The notes below the pieces were generated by a model, which saw only the letters and a program-made list of their open reading frames with translations, ran no database searches and was not told the origin of the DNA. 30,576 bases of DNA from a virus: positions 1 to 30,576 of the IMG/VR virus record IMGVR_UViG_3300027734_000227. One strand, given 5' to 3'. The translations under genes and the position numbers were made by a program. Below, piece by piece: positions 4,589-28,067 of this stretch. How positions within the stretch are numbered: position 1 is the first letter of the stretch; each line of letters opens with the position of its first letter.

Positions 4589-5026
4589 ATGGCAAAGTAT
4601 GCTCAAGGTACATTTGTCCCAAAAAATACTGAAAAATATGTAGGTAAACATACCCCTAGGTATCGTAGTGGTTGGGAACTAACATTTATGACCTTTTGTG
4701 ACAATAACAAAAATGTATTGTATTGGGCTAGTGAGGCGATAAGCGTACCATATCGTAATCCATTTACCGGACTACCAAAAACATATATCCCTGATTTTTT
4801 TGTAGTTTATCAAAATAAACATGGTAAAAATATTGCTGAGATAGTTGAGATTAAACCTAAAAAACAAAGTCTTATAGAGAGTAAAGTTGCTAACGCTAGA
4901 GACAGAATGGTAGTAGCAATTAATCATGCTAAATGGCAGGCTGCAATGGCCTATTGTAAACATCATGGATACACCTTTAGAGTCATAACTGAGGATGATC
5001 TTTTCTATAATGGGCGAAGCAAGTAA
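4589..5026 (+). CDS. 4: Head completion protein with TnsA-like nuclease fold (T4 gp4-like)
   Basis: Predicted to act on filled heads before tail joining, as gp4 does in T4. The 145 residues match the usual size (T4 gp4 is about 150). The N-terminal pattern YRSGWELTFMTFCDNN, then WASEAISVPYRNP, then YIPDFFVVYQ and AEIVEIKPKKQ is that of the TnsA/PD-(D/E)xK fold. Candidate active-site residues are Glu30, Asp69, Glu87 and Lys89, all present. KWQAAMAYCKHHGYTFRVIT near the C-terminus is typical of the family. The start lies 2 bases after the previous stop with no evident Shine-Dalgarno site. Whether it cuts DNA in this phage is inference. Confidence 0.9.
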   Translation: MAKYAQGTFVPKNTEKYVGKHTPRYRSGWELTFMTFCDNNKNVLYWASEAISVPYRNPFTGLPKTYIPDFFVVYQNKHGKNIAEIVEIKPKKQSLIESKVANARDRMVVAINHAKWQAAMAYCKHHGYTFRVITEDDLFYNGRSK

Positions 5027-5547: not shown

Positions 5548-6177
5548 ATGAAAAGCCTAAAAACATACATAACCGAAAGTCTTAAAAGTTACAAATATAC
5601 TATAAAGATTGCTGGTGACGTGGATAAAAACTTTATAGATATGTTTAAGTACAATCTAAACAAGTTTGATCCAATCCGAATCAGTGATCCAACAAAGACT
5701 CCTATTCAGAAAGATCCATATGGATTTCCTAATTTAGCAAATCAATCAGTAACTATTATTAAAGCTGACTTTAGATATCCAGCTACTGAACCAATGATTC
5801 AGCAGATTGCTCAACTATTGGGCTATAATGTTAACATGGTTCGTGTTATTACTACTGATTATAATGATAGCATTAATAGTGAAGCTGAAGGCTATGCTAA
5901 TGAGATGAAAGATAGTCCGATACTTACACATGAAGAAATGGGTGAGCAGCCTGGTGCTAAAGAAGCTAATAAAGCATATGGTGATAGTTATTTAACTAGC
6001 ATCAAAGACCAAATGAAGGGTTCAACAATTGATATTCCTTATGCAGGTCAAAAGACTCCTAATGCGTTTGATCCGTTCAAACCATATTTGGATGATAAGA
6101 AATTAGGCGATAAGAGTCCAATGAGTACTATTACTCGCCCAGCAAAGCCAGCAACTGGTGCAAGTGCATCTAAATAA
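5548..6177 (+). CDS. Unknown protein with a T4-like head-targeting leader
   Basis: 209 residues, function not recognised. It begins MKSLKTYITES, which closely resembles the capsid-targeting leader of T4 internal proteins (MKTYQEFIAEA) and includes I-T-E|S, a fit to the T4 prohead protease site (Leu/Ile-x-Glu, then a small residue). After it come a small alpha/beta-like region (~residues 15-120, with YTIKIAGDVDKNFIDMFKYN and VTIIKADFRYPATEPMIQQI) and a Pro/Lys/Ser-rich tail. It sits behind its own late promoter motif and just before another protein with a comparable leader. Packaging into the head and cleavage there is an inference from the leader alone. Confidence 0.6.
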   Translation: MKSLKTYITESLKSYKYTIKIAGDVDKNFIDMFKYNLNKFDPIRISDPTKTPIQKDPYGFPNLANQSVTIIKADFRYPATEPMIQQIAQLLGYNVNMVRVITTDYNDSINSEAEGYANEMKDSPILTHEEMGEQPGAKEANKAYGDSYLTSIKDQMKGSTIDIPYAGQKTPNAFDPFKPYLDDKKLGDKSPMSTITRPAKPATGASASK

Positions 6178-6190
6178 AAGGAATATTAAA

Positions 6191-8590
6191 ATGAATATGT
6201 TAGATTTAATGAACAAAATGACCCAGCTTAGTGAAGCAAAAGAAAAAACTAAAACTGGATTAAAGCATACTGCTGAACCCGGTGGCTATGGTCGCAAAGA
6301 TGACGAAGATGATGAAGGTCATAAAGTTAAAGCCGATGCCGTGAAAAAAGGAAAAGGTCGTCCTAAGAAAGATGCTGACGATTCAGGTGAAACTAAAAAG
6401 TATGACTTTAGTGCATTTGGTGTTAAGTCTGGCAAAGATGTTAAACTACCTAAACATGATAAAAAGAAAACTACAGTAGTTAAAGGTAAATCACAAAGTC
6501 ATGCCGATAACAAAAAAGATGATGGCACTGATCCTGAGACTAAAGATAAGAAAAAAAGTCTAAAAGAATATTTTGACGCATTAGACAGAGCGATAATGAA
6601 TGAAGATGGTTATACAACTGCACCAATGCCGGGCGCTGTTCAAGTTAAAGATGCGTCTGGTAAAGTTGTTGCAACTGCAAAAAACCCACAAGCTGCCGCA
6701 GCCTTTAAAAATGGTGATGTAACTCTTGGTAATCCAGAAGAAATGAATGAAGGTGACGGTGGTGCTATAGGTGATTTACCAAAACAAACAAGTCCAGAAC
6801 AACCGTATCAAGTACCATTTGGTGCAGATACTAATTTAGTATTTGCACGGGGTAAACGAAGTGGGTTACACTATGCTATGATGCGAGGCATGCTTAGTGA
6901 TCCTTGGTACTTTAAATTTAACGGTAAAGTATATTCAATATCAGACAACGGTGATGGTATACCAAAACCAATTGAGCAAGGTATGGCAGAAGCCGATCAA
7001 CCGTCTAATCAGATGGATATGGGTGCTGGATTGGGTGCTGGACGTAGCCAAGCAACATTTGAAAGTCGTGCTAAAGCTGATAACAAAGCTGAAAAAGCAG
7101 GTAAGAAAGTTACTAAAGACTTAGAATACGATATGAAACATAAAGGTAAAGATGACGAAAAAGCTTTGAAGGCTGGCAAGAAAGTTACCAAAGACATTGA
7201 GTATGATGAGAAACATAAAAAGACAGTAAAAGAAGCGGCTAAGCCTGACTTCCCGGATATTGACAATGACGGCAATAAAAAGGAAAAAATATCTCAGGCA
7301 GCACAAGACGCTAAAAGAGATAAAAAGAAAGTGAAAGAAGGTATGGAACATAAATTAAAAGCAGCTCGCCATACAGGTAAAGCACATGCACTATCTAAGC
7401 AAGGATATAACTGTGGTTATGATGATATGGAAGAATCAAGACATTATCACGAAGGCTACAAAGAAGGTCTAGATGAGTGCTACGGTCAAATGCCAATTCA
7501 AGGTTATGTAGGCGAAGCAAATAACGAAGTAGCTGATATGGCTAGTTACGGAGCTCACACACCTGAATTAGACGAAATGGATAAAACTTCTTACATGAAG
7601 CAACAAGCAATTAAGACTCCGGGCAATACATTTAAGGCATTTGGTCAAACTTTCAAAGATAAAGAAGTAGTAGAAAGTCCATTCGCTTTTGAAGCATGGG
7701 AACAAGAATTGAATTCTATCCTAGAAGGCAAAGATGTTACTGAAGGTATGACCGTTTCTATCAGTAAAGGTCAACAAGGTACTCCTGATTCAGTAAGTGT
7801 TTCAGCACAAGATAGTGAAGCTGATCAATTATTAAGTATCATTAAGCAATCAGGATTAGGTTTGTTTGGCGGTGATGATGCAGGTCAAACTCAGGGAACA
7901 CAACCAATGACAGTTGATGGTGGTGAAGGCCCACAAGCTAATATTGAAGTAGTTGACGACCATGATGATATGTTATCATTAATTCGTAAGATGACTGGTC
8001 AAGGTCCTGCACAAGCAAACGGTGATTATGAAGAAGAAGGTGGTCATGAAGGTCATGGCCATGAAGACGAAACGTGTGAAAGTTGCGGTGGCATGATGGA
8101 AGAAGGTCATTCATGTGGAGAAGCTGTTGAAGAAGATGAATCAATGGATCAGCGTGAATATGAAGTTGCCGAAGACCAGAGTGGTGGTGATGACTCTGAA
8201 GAATCCGATGAAGTTAATAGCGATGCGGTACGTGATGCCTCACTAGCAACAGCCGCTGGTCAAAGTTTTGCTAATACTGATGCCCCTATTAAAGAAGGTG
8301 GTGACGGCGGCGAAGCTTCAGATGCAGGTGCTGACGGTGTAGATATTGCTGATGTAGCTGATGAAACTGAAGAAGATTTAGAAGAATCATTAGCTAATGG
8401 TGCAGATGATACATTTGAGTCTGATATTGACTTTATGACTAAAGTTATTTCAGGTGGTTTAAACAAGCAAAAATCTACTGGTCAAACAACAATTCCAGTT
8501 GTTTCTACACAAGTAAATCGTTTAGGTAATCCGATGAGAGAATCTAATGATTTGTTAAAGGATTGGCGCAAATTAAGTGGTATTAAGTAA
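6191..8590 (+). CDS. Large low-complexity, highly charged protein, probably internal head/virion
   Basis: 799 residues from the ATG at 6191, chosen because AAGGA lies 8 bases upstream; an in-frame ATG at 6158 lies inside the previous gene without such a site. The N-terminus NKMTQLSEAK holds L-S-E|A, a prohead-protease-like site. The first third is Lys/Asp-rich and probably disordered. A 14-residue unit (KAGKKVTKD-EYD-KHK) occurs twice at 7096-7220. PDIDNDGNKKEK (7252-7289) looks like a DxDxDG calcium loop. A Cys/His cluster lies at 8041-8117. The C-terminal third is strongly acidic and ends in DLLKDWRKLSGIK. Further Glu-Gly/Ala/Ser sites (IKEG, VKEA, ILEG) are scattered along it. It may be scaffold-like or an injected polyprotein. 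Function unknown; a strong terminator ends the gene. Confidence 0.6.
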   Translation: MNMLDLMNKMTQLSEAKEKTKTGLKHTAEPGGYGRKDDEDDEGHKVKADAVKKGKGRPKKDADDSGETKKYDFSAFGVKSGKDVKLPKHDKKKTTVVKGKSQSHADNKKDDGTDPETKDKKKSLKEYFDALDRAIMNEDGYTTAPMPGAVQVKDASGKVVATAKNPQAAAAFKNGDVTLGNPEEMNEGDGGAIGDLPKQTSPEQPYQVPFGADTNLVFARGKRSGLHYAMMRGMLSDPWYFKFNGKVYSISDNGDGIPKPIEQGMAEADQPSNQMDMGAGLGAGRSQATFESRAKADNKAEKAGKKVTKDLEYDMKHKGKDDEKALKAGKKVTKDIEYDEKHKKTVKEAAKPDFPDIDNDGNKKEKISQAAQDAKRDKKKVKEGMEHKLKAARHTGKAHALSKQGYNCGYDDMEESRHYHEGYKEGLDECYGQMPIQGYVGEANNEVADMASYGAHTPELDEMDKTSYMKQQAIKTPGNTFKAFGQTFKDKEVVESPFAFEAWEQELNSILEGKDVTEGMTVSISKGQQGTPDSVSVSAQDSEADQLLSIIKQSGLGLFGGDDAGQTQGTQPMTVDGGEGPQANIEVVDDHDDMLSLIRKMTGQGPAQANGDYEEEGGHEGHGHEDETCESCGGMMEEGHSCGEAVEEDESMDQREYEVAEDQSGGDDSEESDEVNSDAVRDASLATAAGQSFANTDAPIKEGGDGGEASDAGADGVDIADVADETEEDLEESLANGADDTFESDIDFMTKVISGGLNKQKSTGQTTIPVVSTQVNRLGNPMRESNDLLKDWRKLSGIK
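7096..7220 (+). repeat. Two-copy coding repeat in the low-complexity head protein
   Basis: The unit KAGKKVTKDLEYDMKHK recurs as KAGKKVTKDIEYDEKHK, separated by a short KGKDDEKAL linker. Codons differ between copies (for example gcaggtaag against gctggcaag), so the duplication is not recent. Confidence 0.75.
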
Positions 8591-11743: not shown

Positions 11744-14323
11744 ATGGCACAACCAATTTGGAATACAACTGCTGGTTCTATTGGAACATTTCCTGCTACT
11801 ATAATAATGGCAACGCAGTTATCAGCATCACCTGTATCTCCCGCTACAACAATAACATATACATTATTAAGCGGTACATTGCCACCGGGTACAACTATTA
11901 CCATTGGTGGATTAATAAGCGGAACCCCCACGTTAGTTACAGTAGACACTACTACTACTTTTACAATTAGAGCAACTGATAATTTATCTAACATACGTGA
12001 TAGAACATTCTCAATAACTATATCAGGAACAGCTATTCCTGAATTCACTACACCGGCGGGAAGTGTTTTATCTACATTAGATAGTGTATGGATTGAATTA
12101 CCAATTGAATATTCAAATCCCGATAATACTAATCAGATTGTAGTAGAAGTTCAAGAAGGTATTTTACCACCCGGTTTAGAAATTAATCCAGCTGGTGTAA
12201 TTAGAGGATATGCTAACCCACCGACAGTTAGTGTTACATTAACTGAAGTAGAAACAAATGCTACTCTAACTGATGGTACTAGTTATTTGATAACATGTAC
12301 AAGTACCACTCAATTCACAATAGGAAGACCAGTAGTATTTACTTCTACTGTATTTGGTGGAATACAAAACGGAGAAACATATTATATTAAAACTATTGAT
12401 AGTTCTACTACCTTTAGTATAACCTCTACACAAAATGGTGATGTGTTTCCATTAACATCAGCATCTGGATCAATGACTGTTACACTCCCTGCTACATCAT
12501 TTGGTCAACCTACTATTCGCACATATTCATTTATCCTTAGGTTATCAAGTAATTTAGGCGGTGATACTGCTACATATTCAATTACAGTAGTAAATCAAAA
12601 TACTCCAGTAAGTCAAGGCGGCCCTGGATATACTATTAATTCACGTATACCCACTATACTTAATACTAGACCTAAAACATTTATAATTACTGATAATGAC
12701 CCATACAGTGGTTATTATATATTACCTCCAATAAGCCCTACTGTTAATGCTTTCATAGGTACAATACGTAGTGGAGAATACTTTACATTTAAAATAATAG
12801 GTTACGATTTTGACGGTAGTTCACTAACATATGATTATGTTAATTTGCCAGTAGAGTTAACCGGAGATACTGAAACAGGGTGGATTACCGGAACACCTAC
12901 ATTAAATTCAACTGGTCTAAGTACATTTTCTTTTGCTGTAAATGTATATAAAACAGATAGTAGTAGTATAGGCACAACTAATTTTAATTTTAGTTATAAT
13001 TTAAGTAATGAAATTACTGATACTATAATATGGTCAACCCCTTCAGATTTAGGAACTATATTTAATAGTTCAATAAGTACAGTAAATGTTTTTGCTGTAG
13101 CCGATACTGAATTATCATACAGAATAACTAGTGGATCATTACCTCCTAATTTGTTATTATTATCTAATGGAGAAATAACAGGTAAAGTAGCAGATCAACC
13201 CACAGACACTTTATTAGAACAAAATACTGAAACAGTATTTACCTTTACTATTCAAGCATATTCTGCTTTATTTCCTGCGGTTCAATCTACTAAAACTTTT
13301 ACAATAACGGTATTACAAGAATATACTCAACCAACAGATACACTATATATTAAGGCAGCACCTAGTATCAATGATAGAAATATTATTAATACTCTATTAA
13401 CAAGTGAAACATTAATTCCTGAAGAAATAGTGTATAGACCCAATGATATATATTTTGGTAAAGCAACTAGTATAGTATATGAGCATGCATATGGTATATA
13501 TGCAAGTGAGATTGATGAATATTTGGCGGCTGTAACTCAAAATCATTATTGGAGAAATATTACTTTAGGTGAAATAAAAACTGCCGTAGCAAAGAATAGT
13601 TTGGGAGAAATAATTTACGAAGTGGTATATAGTGAAGTCATTGATAACTTAGTTAATCCTGCAGGAATAAGTATTCAACAAGAAATTATTTGGCCAAGAC
13701 CAATAGATTTAGGATTAGGTCCATGGTATACTAGTATTACCGATATCCATGCTAGTTATGAAACTGTGTTAGGACAAGAGTATTATACTAGTTTAACACC
13801 TGGTTTTGCACAAACACTGTATCCAAATAGTTTATTTAATATGCGTAATCGTGTAAGTCAAGTTGTAGGACAAGAATTTGATAGTCGTTTACTACCATTA
13901 TGGATGACTAGTCAACAAGAAAACGGCGGTACATTGGGTTACACACAAGCTTGGGTAATATGTTATACTAAACCTGGAATTATTGTTGATGGTCAACTAT
14001 TAACTTATGCTGAATTTAAAGCAACCGGGTTAACAAAGACACGTACTGAGGGTGGCGTAATTATAACAGACTATTTTAGTTCTGCGGAAACTATTAAAAA
14101 CAATATTAACAATAATTGGCCATATACATTGAATCAAATCAACTTTAGAATTGATAGATTTAGTGTAGATAAGAGCGAAACCTATAATTATGATAAAAAA
14201 TTAAATCCACCTGCTTGGACAGGATTACCGAGTGCAACTCCTGTACCTAATCCAATAGACAGTGAAAATTTCTATGTATTGTTCCCTCGTCAAACAATTT
14301 TACCAGACGAATCTCAATACTAA
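11744..14323 (+). CDS. Tail fibre/adhesin with putative Ig-like (He_PIG) modules
   Basis: 859 residues. Four stretches follow the putative Ig pattern (SG-LPPG-...-G-I-G-PT): SGTLPPGTTITIGGLISGTP near residue 45, EGILPPGLEINPAGVIRGYA near 145, a divergent copy around TGDTETGWITGTPT near 380, and SGSLPPNLLLLSNGEITGKV near 470. Between copies two and three is a module (12308-12490) that recurs in the next fibre. The last ~330 residues are different: no repeats, Tyr/Trp-rich, with YKPNDIYFG-like and VGQEFDSRLLPLWMTSQQ segments, and resemble a folded baseplate- or fibre-anchoring region. The ATG follows the lysin stop by one base, so coupling is likely. Surface recognition is inferred from architecture. 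Confidence 0.75.
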   Translation: MAQPIWNTTAGSIGTFPATIIMATQLSASPVSPATTITYTLLSGTLPPGTTITIGGLISGTPTLVTVDTTTTFTIRATDNLSNIRDRTFSITISGTAIPEFTTPAGSVLSTLDSVWIELPIEYSNPDNTNQIVVEVQEGILPPGLEINPAGVIRGYANPPTVSVTLTEVETNATLTDGTSYLITCTSTTQFTIGRPVVFTSTVFGGIQNGETYYIKTIDSSTTFSITSTQNGDVFPLTSASGSMTVTLPATSFGQPTIRTYSFILRLSSNLGGDTATYSITVVNQNTPVSQGGPGYTINSRIPTILNTRPKTFIITDNDPYSGYYILPPISPTVNAFIGTIRSGEYFTFKIIGYDFDGSSLTYDYVNLPVELTGDTETGWITGTPTLNSTGLSTFSFAVNVYKTDSSSIGTTNFNFSYNLSNEITDTIIWSTPSDLGTIFNSSISTVNVFAVADTELSYRITSGSLPPNLLLLSNGEITGKVADQPTDTLLEQNTETVFTFTIQAYSALFPAVQSTKTFTITVLQEYTQPTDTLYIKAAPSINDRNIINTLLTSETLIPEEIVYRPNDIYFGKATSIVYEHAYGIYASEIDEYLAAVTQNHYWRNITLGEIKTAVAKNSLGEIIYEVVYSEVIDNLVNPAGISIQQEIIWPRPIDLGLGPWYTSITDIHASYETVLGQEYYTSLTPGFAQTLYPNSLFNMRNRVSQVVGQEFDSRLLPLWMTSQQENGGTLGYTQAWVICYTKPGIIVDGQLLTYAEFKATGLTKTRTEGGVIITDYFSSAETIKNNINNNWPYTLNQINFRIDRFSVDKSETYNYDKKLNPPAWTGLPSATPVPNPIDSENFYVLFPRQTILPDESQY

Positions 14324-15868: not shown

Positions 15869-16471
15869 TTGACTACACGAATAGAACGAGAATTTTCATT
15901 TCAAGCAGGCGTTTATTTCAAAGAAGAATTTTTAATGAACCTGTATACAATAACATTGTATATGGAAGTAGAAACAGAATCTATTAGAGAACAAAATGTC
16001 GCAATGGAACGAATAAAATACTTCCTAAATGAGTGTTTAGAAAATGGTATTTTTGTACAAGACAATGAACATAAAGTTATTGAAAAATATAGTACATGTG
16101 GATTCAAAGTCTGTACCGTCCCCGAAGAACCATATGACCAAATTATAACATTGTTATTACTAACGAAGCTCAACAGTATTACTGAGGGTAGACTAGTTAT
16201 CACTGATATGACATTAGGTTCACGTATAAGTGATGATGTTAGATTCATATGTGATATTGAAAGCCCACGTGGTCCGTTAGAGTTGCCCGGATGGTGGTCA
16301 GATAGTGGTACATCAATAGCCGACCCTATTAAAAAATCAGTAAAAAAAGACAAAATTGTTAAACTGTTCAAAACACCCTCAACAGATTGGGCAGAATATA
16401 ATTTGGTTTGGAAAGAAAAAGACCAAATTGCTAATTGTGAAATTGTTTTTACAACCGAACACGAAAAATAA
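15869..16471 (+). CDS. Unknown protein with TTG start or internal ATG start
   Basis: Up to 200 residues, not recognised. The longest frame opens with TTG at 15869, 2 bases after the previous stop; an ATG at 15935 (MNLYTITLYMEVETESIREQ) gives 178 residues. Neither has a good Shine-Dalgarno site. Coupling favours the TTG, and the N-terminal residues (IEREFSFQAGVYFKEEF) look protein-like. The protein appears soluble and alpha/beta, with strands such as MNLYTITLYMEVET, EGRLVITDMTL and DVRFICDIESPRGPLELPGW and a Lys-rich C-terminal part. The 188-residue open frame on the opposite strand here is an antisense shadow. Function open. Confidence 0.65.
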   Translation: MTTRIEREFSFQAGVYFKEEFLMNLYTITLYMEVETESIREQNVAMERIKYFLNECLENGIFVQDNEHKVIEKYSTCGFKVCTVPEEPYDQIITLLLLTKLNSITEGRLVITDMTLGSRISDDVRFICDIESPRGPLELPGWWSDSGTSIADPIKKSVKKDKIVKLFKTPSTDWAEYNLVWKEKDQIANCEIVFTTEHEK

Positions 16472-16484
16472 TTAACCAAATATA

Positions 16485-16513
16485 TTGTATTTTAGTAACA
16501 GTTATGTTATAAT
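16485..16513 (+). promoter_or_regulatory. Sigma70-type extended -10 promoter
   Basis: A perfect -10 TATAAT (16508-16513) is preceded by TGT, an extended -10 element. A poor -35, TTGTAT (16485-16490), sits 17 bases upstream. Position +1 is predicted at 16520, the first base of the ATG, giving a leaderless or nearly leaderless transcript. It probably drives early/middle expression of the cluster from 16520 onward. Confidence 0.65.
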
Positions 16514-16519
16514 ATACAA

Positions 16520-17026
16520 ATGAAAACAGATAAGTATGGTCAATTAATTTACAATCAGCACGATTTGTGCGAATTGTTTCTACAAGATCCTACACGTACT
16601 ATCACTAACGCACTTATAGATAACCCAATTGAATTTAATGGATTTCTCTCATTAGAGAATTTACCCAATCTAAAACAATATGACAATTTAAATCTTTCCA
16701 TAGAAGAATTTGATAAACAAAATCAATCAAAATGGCATATGCCCAAAGAATATTATGAGTTTGATATTGCTAAATGGGTATTAGATCAATGCAAAAATGA
16801 AGCTGAGTTACAACGTGCCGGAGATGAATTAATTAAGTTTCAAGAACGTAATATGTTTGTATTATTACAGTATTTAAAATACTTAGTAGATACTATGCGT
16901 AAAAATAATGTTGTATGGGGTGTAGGGCGTGGAAGTTCAGTGGCAAGTTTTGTATTGTTTTTAATAGGAATACATAGAATAAATAGTTTGTACTATGACT
17001 TATCAATAGATGAGTTTTTAAAATAA
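16520..17026 (+). CDS. Short family C DNA polymerase-like protein (DnaE/PolC core fragment)
   Basis: 168 residues. The last ~90 align by eye with the DnaE region entering the palm: a helical ERNMFVLLQYLKYLVDTMRK segment, then WGVGRGSSVASFVLFLIGIH (133-152), matching the DnaE GPGRGS-GS signature, then SLYYDLSIDEFLK, matching the LLFERFLN step. In DnaE the catalytic Asp motif (PDFDxDF) comes right after; here the protein stops first. It also lacks PHP, fingers, thumb and OB domains. It therefore cannot be a complete polymerase. It has its own sigma70-type promoter. Possible roles are a regulator or decoy for host Pol III, or a repurposed nucleotide-binding fold; both are guesses. Homology to the motif is strong, function unknown. 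Confidence 0.7.
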   Translation: MKTDKYGQLIYNQHDLCELFLQDPTRTITNALIDNPIEFNGFLSLENLPNLKQYDNLNLSIEEFDKQNQSKWHMPKEYYEFDIAKWVLDQCKNEAELQRAGDELIKFQERNMFVLLQYLKYLVDTMRKNNVVWGVGRGSSVASFVLFLIGIHRINSLYYDLSIDEFLK

Positions 17027-17036
17027 GGAGAATATT

Positions 17037-17387
17037 ATGGCTAATTATAAAACAGCAATGGGTAAAGTTGTTGATATGTCGGCACTAGCTGCAAAGAATG
17101 AAAAAACTAGAGCAGTAGGGAACATGAAGGTTAATGCACGGGGTGATACCATTGATGCTCAAGGTCGTATTATAAAATCTGCGACAGTTAAAGCAAATGA
17201 TTCATATAACAGAACTGTGGGTAATCGTTCTGCTCAACCAGTAAGACCTACCACAAAGCCATCGGCCCCAGCTAAACCAAAAATTGATTTTAGTGAATTA
17301 ACTGAAATAGAACGTGAGATTGAAGAATCTTACATAGATGATTTAGAAGTGGAACACATTAAAGCACAGGAACTTAAAAAGAAATGA
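17037..17387 (+). CDS. Unknown basic/disordered protein upstream of the cochaperonin
   Basis: 116 residues, not recognised. A Lys/Ala/Asn-rich N-terminal half (TAMGKVVDMSALAAKNEKTR, then ARGDTIDAQGRIIKS) leads into a Pro/Ala/Lys linker (~residues 64-80) and an acidic C-terminal helix (DFSELTEIEREIEESYIDDL). It is probably flexible with one helical binding segment. AAGGAG lies 8 bases before the ATG, the best ribosome-binding site in this cluster. Its last codons overlap the next gene by 4 bases (ATGA), so the two are translationally coupled. Confidence 0.75.
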   Translation: MANYKTAMGKVVDMSALAAKNEKTRAVGNMKVNARGDTIDAQGRIIKSATVKANDSYNRTVGNRSAQPVRPTTKPSAPAKPKIDFSELTEIEREIEESYIDDLEVEHIKAQELKKK

Positions 17388-25140: not shown

Positions 25141-25849
25141 TACCCCGGGCATTGATTTCTATGATTATCGGGATAGTGATTACTACGGTAAATACAAATA
25201 TCGTGTAAGATTCTCTATAGAGGGTGTTAGATATGCTATGTATGAAAAAAACTTTGATGGGTTGATGAAACGATATAATATCTTAACTGGTTGGAAAAAG
25301 ATAAAAGATTTGGATAGACCAGTAGTTACAGAAAATCTAGAGGCTCTTGGAAAGTTTATAGATTTTCGTAATATGCTTAAAGAAAACAATACTGGGTTAG
25401 TTCGTATTGAGAGTAGTAGAATATCAATCTTTAGTAATGATTTAGCCTTATTAAAAACAAGTGAAAGTATTAAAGTTGGTATCTTTTATGATTATACAGA
25501 AGCTCAAACAAATAATTTTGTAGGAGTAAAGTCATTTGTCAATGACCCTAAACATAAGTATAGGGTTTATTTGAAATCTAAAATGATTCAAAATACATTT
25601 GTCACACAATTAGATGATTTATTAAAACGTTCAACAGACTTACATCCTAGTCCGTCATTAAAATACTGGCTACAGGGATATAATAATAATGCCCCTTCTT
25701 GGAGTTGGAGATATCGTTACACCAATAGTAATCACTTCATTGACTATGATGAAGAAACCCTATTAAGCTATCTAGCATTGATGCACGGGGAATATCTAGG
25801 AAAACGCTATAAATTAGAAAAGAGAATAGAAAATTATGGAACCAATTAG
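25115..25849 (+). CDS. Unknown protein overlapping the end of clpA
   Basis: 244 residues, not recognised. The ATG at 25115 lies inside clpA in another frame, with AGTAGGAGA just before it (25106-25113) as ribosome-binding site, so it is translated by coupling. The protein is basic and aromatic-rich (YYGKYKYRVRFSIEGVRYAM, ILTGWKKIKDLDRPV, VNDPKHKYRVYLKSKMIQNT, YWLQGYNNNAPSWSWRYRYT). The pattern suggests a soluble alpha/beta protein, possibly nucleic-acid-binding given the Lys/Arg/Tyr content, but no motif fixes that. It ends overlapping the next start by 14 bases. Confidence 0.75.
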   Translation: MGLLKLATDTPGIDFYDYRDSDYYGKYKYRVRFSIEGVRYAMYEKNFDGLMKRYNILTGWKKIKDLDRPVVTENLEALGKFIDFRNMLKENNTGLVRIESSRISIFSNDLALLKTSESIKVGIFYDYTEAQTNNFVGVKSFVNDPKHKYRVYLKSKMIQNTFVTQLDDLLKRSTDLHPSPSLKYWLQGYNNNAPSWSWRYRYTNSNHFIDYDEETLLSYLALMHGEYLGKRYKLEKRIENYGTN

Positions 25850-26249
25850 AAAATTCATAAATGTAGTTGAATCCGCACAAAGTGTAGAGCAACTAGCACA
25901 TATTAGCGATAAAGCATTAGATGATGCTTATCATTATGGTCGTAGTCAACCCGGTGCAAGCTTTGGATGGTTGGCTAATATTGAGAGTGCAAAAGCCGCC
26001 AAAAGATTGATTGACGCCGGTGAAACTGATATTGAAAAGATTAGTGATGCTATACATGACGGATGGAATATTACTGCGATGGCAGATTACAACAATCAAT
26101 TACAATTAGATAGTCCCACGCCTGACGAAAAGAAGGCTAAAAGAGCTAAATTAGCACAGCAACCCTATAGTCAACTTCCAGAAGAAGAAAAAGAGAAGGA
26201 TCGTGTTGTGGCAAGGGCGTTATTAAAAGCAATTACAGGTACTGCGTAA
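25836..26249 (+). CDS. Small protein with RyR-domain-like C-terminus and head-leader-like start
   Basis: 137 residues. Residues ~68-131 resemble the RyR domain (named after ryanodine receptors, also found in bacteria and phages). DAIHDGW (71-77) matches the family's helix ending in a Trp, and PYSQLPEEEKEKDRVVARAL (110-129) matches its highly conserved PW/PYxxLPEEEKExDR segment. The usual central Gly-Trp-xx-Gly part is weak or absent. The N-terminus, PIRKFINVVESAQS, looks like a head-targeting leader with V-V-E|S as an imperfect protease site. The middle (DDAYHYGRSQPGASFGWLAN) is unassigned. The ATG lies 14 bases inside the preceding gene. RyR call is by eye and moderately confident; ligand unknown. 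Confidence 0.65.
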   Translation: MEPIRKFINVVESAQSVEQLAHISDKALDDAYHYGRSQPGASFGWLANIESAKAAKRLIDAGETDIEKISDAIHDGWNITAMADYNNQLQLDSPTPDEKKAKRAKLAQQPYSQLPEEEKEKDRVVARALLKAITGTA

Positions 26250-26837: not shown

Positions 26838-28067
26838 ATGAAAACTTTAGTTATTATGCCAGGAGGCTTTCATCCATTTCATGCCGGACACGCATCGTTA
26901 TATCAAGACGCGGTAAAGGCATTTCCCGGCGCTGATGTATATGTAACCGCTAGCAATGACACTAGTGAAAGATCCTTCCCCTTCGCAATTAAAGAAAAAC
27001 TAGCAAGAGTTGCAGGCGTACCAGCCGGACATTTTGTTCAAGTTACCAGTCCTTTTAGTTCAGAAGAAATAACTAGTAGATATGATCCCGATGATACAAT
27101 ATTAATTTTTGTAAAGAGTGAGAAAAATTCTAAAAATGGTTCCGACCCTGAAGGTCCGTTCCCAGCAGAAGTTGATCCTGCTACGGGAAAATTACCTCTT
27201 GCTAAAAGAGGTAAAAGAAAAGGACTACCGGTAAGTGATACATTAAAGTATTATGCCGGTAATGAAAAAAATCTTCAACCTATGAGTCGTAATAGATATA
27301 TCGCATATTTACCAACTGTACCGTTTGGTCCTGGTATTAAGAGTGGAAGTGAGTTCCGTGCATTATGGGATAGATTTACTAAAGTTTTATTAGATCCAAA
27401 ATCAACTCCCGAACAAAAATCTAAAGCAACAGAACTTAAAAAAGAATTGGTTATGAACATGTATCCTGCAACTCAGGAGAATCCTAGATTAGCTGTCAAT
27501 GTAGTTAAACTTATGGATAAAGGTATGAGCAATCCATTAACTAATAAATCAGATTTAGCAGAAGGATTATTAAATGAATTTGTTCCGCCAAGTAGCGGTG
27601 GGGGTGGCGAGAATGATAGAAATCGTAGAATAAGAAAACTATTAGAAATTGCTATACAAGTAGCAAAGCAAAAAAATGTTGATGAATTGGGTATGATACA
27701 TGCTATGAATATGATAGCAGGTGATGACTTTTTTAGTGTAGCAGTTGAAGGTATACTACCAGATATAACAGATAAAGAATATATGTTCGTACTACAGAGT
27801 GCCTATAAAACAGTAAAGCAAGGTTTGGCGGAAGCAGAAAAAACAGCCAGAGTCTTTCACCCGCAATATGTAGATGTATACTTCTTAGATGGACCTAGAA
27901 GAACTCCTATTCTAGTTAATCGTAAAGTACCATATAATTTAATTGATAGATATTTAGAAGTAGCTATTAAAAAATACAATCTACAACAGGGTCGTTTTGA
28001 GTTTAGAAACGCAGAAGAAGATCCAGTTAAGGTTACCGAAAGTGTGGATTATTTAGAAGAAAAATAA
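26838..28067 (+). CDS. Adenylyl/cytidylyltransferase-like protein (HxGH family) with C-terminal extension
   Basis: 409 residues. The first ~180 residues are a Rossmann-type nucleotidyltransferase: MKTLVIMPGGFHPFHAGHAS with the HxGH motif at 15-18, and IKSGSEFRAL at ~168-176 as counterpart of the ISSTxxR motif. Such enzymes join NTP to a phosphorylated substrate; NMN adenylyltransferases (NAD synthesis) and cytidylyltransferases share this core, and the substrate cannot be told here. Residues 240-248 read LAEGLLNEF, containing L-A-E|G, a prohead-protease-like site. Beyond it a helical domain (RRIRKLLEIAIQVAKQ to QSAYKTVKQGLAEAE) and a small basic domain follow, with VTES near the end. It may be a packaged, cleaved polyprotein. 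Enzyme fold is secure, reaction open. Confidence 0.85.
   Translation: MKTLVIMPGGFHPFHAGHASLYQDAVKAFPGADVYVTASNDTSERSFPFAIKEKLARVAGVPAGHFVQVTSPFSSEEITSRYDPDDTILIFVKSEKNSKNGSDPEGPFPAEVDPATGKLPLAKRGKRKGLPVSDTLKYYAGNEKNLQPMSRNRYIAYLPTVPFGPGIKSGSEFRALWDRFTKVLLDPKSTPEQKSKATELKKELVMNMYPATQENPRLAVNVVKLMDKGMSNPLTNKSDLAEGLLNEFVPPSSGGGGENDRNRRIRKLLEIAIQVAKQKNVDELGMIHAMNMIAGDDFFSVAVEGILPDITDKEYMFVLQSAYKTVKQGLAEAEKTARVFHPQYVDVYFLDGPRRTPILVNRKVPYNLIDRYLEVAIKKYNLQQGRFEFRNAEEDPVKVTESVDYLEEK

Follow-up and report, generated by a model that had tools for sequence, protein, structure and literature searches.

A candidate multiply cut prohead-core protein of T4-like phages, with exchangeable cassettes and an RMF-like hairpin

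Introduction

The prohead protease gp21 of phage T4 is described as cleaving after L/I-x-E (PMC9026906), degrading gp22, gp67 and gp68 and trimming the internal proteins (PMC9958956). Long, multiply cut propeptides are reported for head proteins of phage SPN3US (PMC10052503), and an inner body for the head of the jumbo coliphage phAPEC6, whose genome is 350 kb (PMC7247149). Phages also deliver polyvalent proteins, multi-module chains that are processed to units and have been likened to viral polyproteins (Iyer et al. 2017, PMC5512222). For TayeBlu, a phage protein that is homologous to hibernation factors and stands on its own is reported (PMC12772287), and the viral model library contains phage proteins annotated as RMF.

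Here we describe a gene of a 30.6-kb virus record, analysed at its full length and called the window hereafter. Its product, P0001, is likely to be an internal protein of the prohead core of a T4-like phage and to be cleaved repeatedly by a gp21-type prohead protease. In the titles and abstract openings covered by our literature search, no RMF-like module was described in a head protein, and nothing there joined such a bead to prohead-protease sites and exchangeable cassettes. Thus, we regard this combination as new, its components being known separately.

Results

A long gene with conserved islands

The reading frame of P0001 is translated without a stop, and AAGGA precedes its ATG (Table 1). 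Relatives were found at 73 IMG/VR loci, on contigs of up to 364 kb, and alignments showed that the N-terminal stretch is kept in them. Searches with P0001 itself yielded no match by tblastn in 50,697 phage records (threshold E 1e-5), nothing in PHROGs beyond one PHROG at E 0.17, no Pfam family up to E 10 and no Pfam peptidase within the chain. phrog_24078, of unknown function, was matched by 17 of 33 members of the family.

The original prediction had described a charged protein with an internal repeat, a calcium-like loop and a Cys/His cluster. All three are real and lie where it had placed them, with AGKKVTKD copies at residues 303 and 328, DIDNDG at residue 356 and CESCGGMMEEGHSC at residues 629-642. 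In a set of 31 non-redundant full-length members, P0001 among them, each is conserved beyond what shuffled sequences lead one to expect: the repeat is present in 18 members (0.0 expected), the DxDxD[GNS] loop in 23 (3.6 expected) and the Cys/His pattern in 24 (0.0 expected), while the CxxC is retained in 28. By our reading, 14 of the 24 pattern carriers have a Cys at the position of the His of P0001, and the pattern thus becomes CxxCG..(C/H)xC. The four putative ligands of a zinc-knuckle-like cluster appear, by this pattern, to be kept in all the carriers; loss of the Cys/His pattern in relatives, which had been set beforehand as the outcome that would count against the prediction, did not occur.

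The calcium-like label of the loop fared less well. Its DxDxDG pattern stands, but position 12 of an EF-hand is not acidic in P0001, and the EF-hand was not retained as a main reading. The Excalibur loop has the form DxDxDGxxCE, to which the DxDxDGxxKE of P0001 appears closer, and the Excalibur model PF05901 was found in one of 33 members by Pfam scan (E 0.029).

The Lys-rich front and acidic back that had been noted are borne out by net charges of +10 over residues 51-100 and -46 over residues 601-750. The compaction of DNA proposed at the same time is no more than suggested by the basic front and by the AT-hook model PF02178, which matches 11 of the 33 members weakly, with E 0.013 at best, and does not match P0001 itself. 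The AlphaFold2 model of P0001, with a mean pLDDT of 50, has ordered islands at residues 141-178, 383-432 and 465-495, linked by low-confidence stretches; a fourth island, at ~498-555, is less certain. By likeness to T4 internal proteins, the N-terminal helix may act as a capsid-targeting sequence (CTS).

Table 1. Features of P0001 and of the gene upstream, in window coordinates (a slash marks a predicted cut)
Feature	Position	Strand	Basis
P0001, multi-site head-core polyprotein-like gene, 799 aa	6191..8590	+	ORF translation, relatives, motif counts
N-terminal helix ending LSE/A, residues 1-15, capsid-targeting-sequence-like	6191..6235	+	helix 3-15 in model; LSEA/LNEA in most aligned rows
GKGRPKK, AT-hook-like core in basic front	6350..6370	+	weak PF02178 in relatives
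Small folded island, strands and helix, residues 141-178	6611..6724	+	ten-residue blocks, pLDDT 84, 85, 83, 68
Stretch between cuts 187 and 267, with inserted cassette ~195-261	6752..6991	+	alignments
AGKKVTKD double repeat	7073..7219	+	pattern count
DIDNDGNKKE, Excalibur-like acidic loop	7256..7285	+	Pfam scan, pattern count
RMF-like helical hairpin, residues 384-435, starting at predicted cut VKE383/G	7340..7495	+	model, structure and profile comparison
Small folded island, residues 465-495	7583..7675	+	block pLDDT 64, 78, 79, 48
Helix-strand-strand-helix island, residues 496-560, moderate confidence, around conserved cuts 512/518	7676..7870	+	block pLDDT 48-69
Acidic stretch, residues 601-750, net -46	7991..8440	+	charge count
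CESCGGMMEEGHSC, zinc-knuckle-like cluster	8075..8116	+	pattern in 24/31 members
Strongly conserved C-terminus, SGGLNKQKSTGQTTIP ... NPMRE/S	8408..8587	+	alignments
14 predicted gp21-type cut sites	6233..8542	+	motif scan
Upstream 209-aa gene, N-terminus MKSLKTYITE/S	5548..6177	+	PA5oct EST35_0202 relative, 29% identity, E 1e-6

A prohead-protease site signature

P0001 contains 14 [LIMV]xE[AGS] sites against 2.9 expected, a number reached in 0 of 1000 shuffles; across the 31 members, there are 357 against 97.9 expected (z 26), counts that are not independent as the members share descent. The predicted cuts of P0001 follow residues 15, 187, 267, 348, 383, 415, 442, 495, 512, 518, 638, 702, 732 and 784. 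Seven columns are invariant in 33 aligned members, and they include E383 and E518, both of which sit in VxE/G sites of P0001. The nearest control motifs, [LIMV].D[AGS], [LIMV]..E, [LIMV]E and E.[LIMV], showed no enrichment; in the family, though not in P0001, [LIMV].[KR] (z 5.5) and E[AG] (z 4.9) show a mild excess. The strict [LI]xE motif is enriched in the family (269 against 190 expected) and not in P0001 alone (7 against 5.0 expected; 236 of 1000 shuffles). Among the 34 ORFs of the window, P0001 is the only one with a motif p < 0.01. Judged by the broader [LIMV]xE[AGS], it has the enriched L/I-x-E-like motifs that a gp21-type substrate should show.

The motif test was applied to 125 T4 ORFs from two stretches (89 of 169 kb), gp67 being absent from the ORFs ranked. 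It placed gp22 first, gp21 second, the unrelated ORF e.7 third and gp23 fourth. The single-cut internal proteins, Alt and gp24 were not singled out, and gp68, which is degraded in T4, was missed by the broad motif (p 0.50). Thus, some multiply cut core proteins are flagged by the test and others are missed; P0001 carries this flag. A Peptidase_S77 (PF03420) was detected in three of the nine long relatives searched, the other six being shorter records and possibly fragments. Inspection by eye of the ORF list of the window, itself a fragment, revealed no protease gene.

Enrichment and conservation of the motif lend indirect support to the prediction of a head or core protein that would be cut into separate peptides. 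Of the metal-site islands, the Cys/His cluster has the predicted cut 638 within it and may therefore not survive whole.

Separate core genes in a 348-kb relative

When the 379 ORFs of a 348-kb relative (G001) were ranked by the motif, a 366-aa gene in the gp22 position, directly after gp21, came first with 15 sites, followed by the P0001 relative (13 sites), a 631-aa gene beside the terminase (11 sites) and gp21 itself (4 sites). The head genes of this genome are in T4 order, with portal (PHROG 213, E 1e-106), an acidic ORF, gp21 (PHROG 207, E 4e-61), the gp22-position gene and gp23 (PHROG 138, E 2e-98), the sequence of which has a plausible maturation site, LLAE/SSAG. The P0001 relative is located at 317215, ~220 kb from this block.

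A role as the main scaffold, or as the equivalent of gp67, gp68 or gp22, had been envisaged for P0001 and is not supported by this arrangement. The gap between gp21 and gp23 is filled by another gene (99187-100287), which belongs to phrog_10922, of unknown function, and that between portal and gp21, the gp67/68 position, is filled by the acidic ORF (97638-98525) and a 97-aa ORF. As this genome has genes of their own for the scaffold position, the protease and the capsid, P0001 would be an additional protein.

Two further observations were made in the same genome. The 631-aa gene (12088-13983, L078) has relatives at loci L128-L149; in L143 and L144, apparent relatives of it, an MPYG cassette lies between VNE/G or VTE/G and MLE/S. 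CTS-like xE sites near the start were found in 44 of the 379 ORFs (shuffle mean 24.6, maximum 39 in 500), with examples at 16385-17154, 203586, 261485 and 319468 (among L078-L095), and this excess suggests that several internal proteins may be packed by this phage. Of the 34 window ORFs, 5 have CTS-like starts against 2.0 expected, which is within chance.

Exchangeable cassettes and their boundaries

Modules of the family recur in differing orders and in different proteins. Residues ~211-262 of P0001 align with almost no relative, and the 195-261 cassette was found at 90% identity only in L050/L107, in a different protein, where it likewise lies between predicted cuts. Of 1,879 BLAST match ends, 16.1% are no more than 3 aa away from a site, compared with 9.7% for circular shifts (0 of 500). 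Protein pairs with no more than 25% of their length in common gave 304 boundary clusters, of which 24.0% are at most 6 aa from a site, against 13.4% (0 of 1000), and 12.2% at most 3 aa, against 7.4% (2 of 1000); over all pairs, the excess is small (10.8% against 8.7% at 3 aa or less). These tests, the rows of which are related and not independent, left out HSPs under 25 or 20 aa and ends near protein ends and, in the boundary-cluster test, also proteins with fewer than three sites. Because the module seeds were drawn with the sites in view, the BLAST-end tests alone count for boundaries. They suggest that shared modules end near predicted cuts more often than by chance, a clear but moderate tendency.

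Among the matches listed, the MPYG module was also present in small ORFs that lack sites altogether (L137, L140, L150 and L151), and in other cases it was not close to sites (e.g. L128, L129, L131, L146 and L149). A small module with MPYGTMKARDGDP is encoded at 44 loci (L108-L151) and is shared by small stand-alone ORFs and by phage proteins of at least four otherwise unlike kinds. Another module of the P0001 family, GKPGKNF, recurs in LR756501, LR756503 and LR756511, from uncultured phages of 595-735 kb; in the stretch of LR756511 that was read, the 179-aa ORF with this module has no predicted site.

An RMF-like bead

Residues ~384-435 make up the best-folded bead of P0001. With the whole model, the top three PDB entries in the VIA comparison were all RMF (Z 6.4, 6.0 and 5.1; next 3.3). 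The bead was then predicted alone from 21 aligned segments (mean pLDDT 83), and the three RMF entries again ranked 1-3 (Z 7.9, 7.2 and 6.8; next 4.3; 29 chains), with an rmsd of 3.3-3.4 over 53-58 residues of the predicted model, Z values below 8 being such as may mean just a common arrangement. Foldseek placed RMF first and second, with weak E values of 0.65 and 0.69. Profile comparison with RMF and RMF-like sequences, 83 in all (63 close and 20 divergent), gave a probability of 71% and a P of 3.6e-5 over 47 columns, in nearly the same register as the structure match. Column shuffles reached this score in 0 of 200 cases for each of three overlapping RMF alignments (600 in total), and the reversed profile and five unrelated alignments scored below the RMF match.

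At E 1, the single match of PF04957 in nine phage records was this module in the relative from G002, with an E of 0.011 and 15 bits, under the curated cut-off of 27.9; for this reason, the module was filed as RMF-like and not as an RMF member. Of the 14 control genomes other than E. coli, 4 also had weak PF04957 matches at E 1. RMF was not found by hmmsearch of the module in PDB sequences, nor was it listed by Pfam hmmscan of the 33 members; among 2,044 ORFs scanned with an RMF profile, the module ranked top, but with an E of 0.32. The net charge of the module is -3 versus +7 for E. coli RMF. No phage match better than E 2 was obtained by tblastn of the module. Against viral models, the whole model had a best E of 0.034, with an annotated phage RMF at rank 4, and the bead alone a best E of 0.046, with annotated phage RMFs at ranks 11 and 30. 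On balance, we consider it rather probable that the bead and RMF are related by descent.

The bead is present in 20 of the 31 members and starts at most two residues from a predicted cut in 19 of these. A predicted cut also falls inside it in 17 of the 20 carriers, at site 415 in P0001. The Glu of this inner site is invariant in 21 of 21 aligned segments, even where the motif is lost, and may therefore be kept for the fold; from the model, site 415, within a well-folded hairpin, may escape cleavage. The MPYG module occurs in 7 of the 11 bead-less members, in six of them at about the same place, before a module like that at 498-555.

Neighbours and possible virion counterparts

P0001 is preceded by a head-closure gene (4589-5026; PHROG 218, E 8e-42), a 160-aa gene and the 209-aa gene of Table 1. 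In phage PA5oct, EST35_0202 and the next gene, EST35_0203, are annotated as structural, with a note of ESI-MS/MS. The opening stretch of EST35_0203 ends in VKE/S, and the protein has a Cys/His cluster and five sites (p 0.037). In phage CBB, CBB_213 is five places after the gp4-like gene, and its presence in virions is reported with five unique peptides and 18.9% coverage (PMC5259590). Site enrichment in the CBB_213 group is mixed, with p values of 0.007 for XbC2, 0.011 for GAP32, 0.091 for Munch, 0.117 for RaK2 and 0.40 for 121Q. The P0001 family profile gave nothing significant against 18 cultured jumbo-phage proteins, nor did profile-profile comparisons of the middle and end regions of P0001 with the GAP32_207/RaK2_050 group; thus, common descent with the virion proteins of that group is not claimed. 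No sequence comparison tied P0001 to the PA5oct and CBB proteins, which are its counterparts by place and style only. In Atu_ph07, the gene after the relative of the upstream gene codes for a repeat protein with 1 site against 0.9 expected, which counts against strict synteny.

Two other genes of the window drew attention. The 137-aa product of 25836-26249 has a CTS-like start, IRKFINVVE/S, and a match to the RyR domain just below the Pfam cut-off (25.1 versus 27.4 bits, E 2.2e-5). That of 26838-28067 has a nucleotidyltransferase-like N-terminus (PHROG 395, E 9e-4) followed by a long extension with LAE/G, LAE/A and VTE/S (3 sites against 1.3 expected, p 0.15), only a hint that it might be a packaged enzyme.

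Discussion

The RMF-like module and the cassette structure are additions to what had originally been predicted. Computation shows the gene, its conservation, the enrichment of sites and of boundaries near them, the separate core genes of a relative and the likeness of the bead to RMF in predicted fold and profile; a core location, cleavage, release, injection and any action on ribosomes are inferred. The N-terminal helix probably helps bring P0001 into the core. Once the shell closes, the gp21-type protease would cut the chain at many [LIMV]xE/[AGS] sites, which separate small beads, folded or metal-binding-like, from one another. Short acidic linkers may exit, while other beads would stay with the DNA and may reach the host. 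P0001 would thus be a string of exchangeable cassettes, one of them an RMF-like hairpin. That the RMF-like bead is freed intact and injected is doubtful, though well within reason, and its acting on host ribosomes is unlikely. So, though not negligible, is the complete scenario of a protease-gated cargo chain, with cassettes shuffled between prohead-protease sites and one freed, injected factor of the hibernation type acting on host ribosomes before phage gene expression begins.

P0001 might instead be a plain accessory scaffold like T4 gp22, gp67 and gp68, degraded to exiting peptides, with islands that serve core packing only, and the chance of this falls only somewhat short of even. The multi-cut signature resembles that of gp22, the acidic stretch is long, and the degradation of gp22, gp67 and gp68 as described for T4 is a precedent (PMC9958956). 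However, the 348-kb relative has separate genes for gp21 and for the gp22 and gp67/68 positions, and such a scaffold would not need the exchange of distinct folded or metal-like cassettes. A histone-like internal filler that compacts DNA, with cleavage incidental, would be in line with the basic front and its AT-hook-like core, but we deem it improbable given the strongly acidic rear and a site signature above that of every other window ORF; DNA compaction alone was not retained as a main reading. Finally, the xE enrichment might reflect the linker style of repeats and not cleavage. The shared descent of the members makes their counts dependent, and [LIMV].[KR] and E[AG] are mildly enriched too; nevertheless, the closest control motifs are not, the T4 test recovers gp22 and gp21, and the gp22-position gene and gp21 of the 348-kb relative carry the same signature, and we deem this reading improbable.

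As for the bead, it might be a two-helix hairpin of a generic kind that shares no ancestry with RMF. The Foldseek E values, the VIA Z values below 8, the failure of PDB hmmsearch and Pfam hmmscan of 33 members to bring up RMF, the E of 0.32 on 2,044 ORFs and the charge difference all favour this reading, which we regard as the lesser, yet a substantial, possibility. Against it stand the RMF entries at ranks 1-3, above the next in Z (7.9, 7.2 and 6.8 versus 4.3), and the profile match in near-same register, with its P of 3.6e-5 and 0 of 200 shuffles for each of the three overlapping alignments. The sole PF04957 match in the nine phage records (E 0.011) also is this module, the four control genomes with weak matches notwithstanding.

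If P0001 is indeed a core protein made of cassettes that are swapped at protease sites, head maturation would double as a means by which a single gene has several small effectors packaged and freed. An RMF-like factor carried in the virion would then be a direct, testable way for a jumbo phage to alter host translation on entry. Ranking a whole phage proteome by the motif is also an easy way, from sequence alone, to look for head proteins of uncultured phages that are cut many times.

Comparison with known systems

Like T4 gp22, P0001 has many gp21-type sites and an acidic part and is, by its signature, a putative core protein; it differs in that the 348-kb relative has its own gp22-position gene and that P0001 has a modular build of exchangeable cassettes and, in the model, is disordered for the most part. 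It shares with the CTS-bearing IPI-III and Alt of T4 a short N-terminal helix ending at an xE/ site and the presumed status of head cargo, but is predicted to be cut many times, not once or twice. The internal head proteins of SPN3US, compared by description apart from the tblastn of phage records, are likewise reported to be cut several times after xE, albeit with A-x-E specificity and mostly in N-terminal propeptides. Polyvalent proteins also comprise several modules per chain; however, they are described as having built-in peptidase domains (PMC5512222), whereas the sites of P0001 fit a separate prohead protease and its modules are small and mostly unnamed. Lastly, the bead of P0001 differs from RMF (PF04957) in being part of a long head protein, less basic and under the Pfam cut-off, and yet resembles it in hairpin length and register and in the C-x-Y and G-(Y/W)-(K/R)-E positions.
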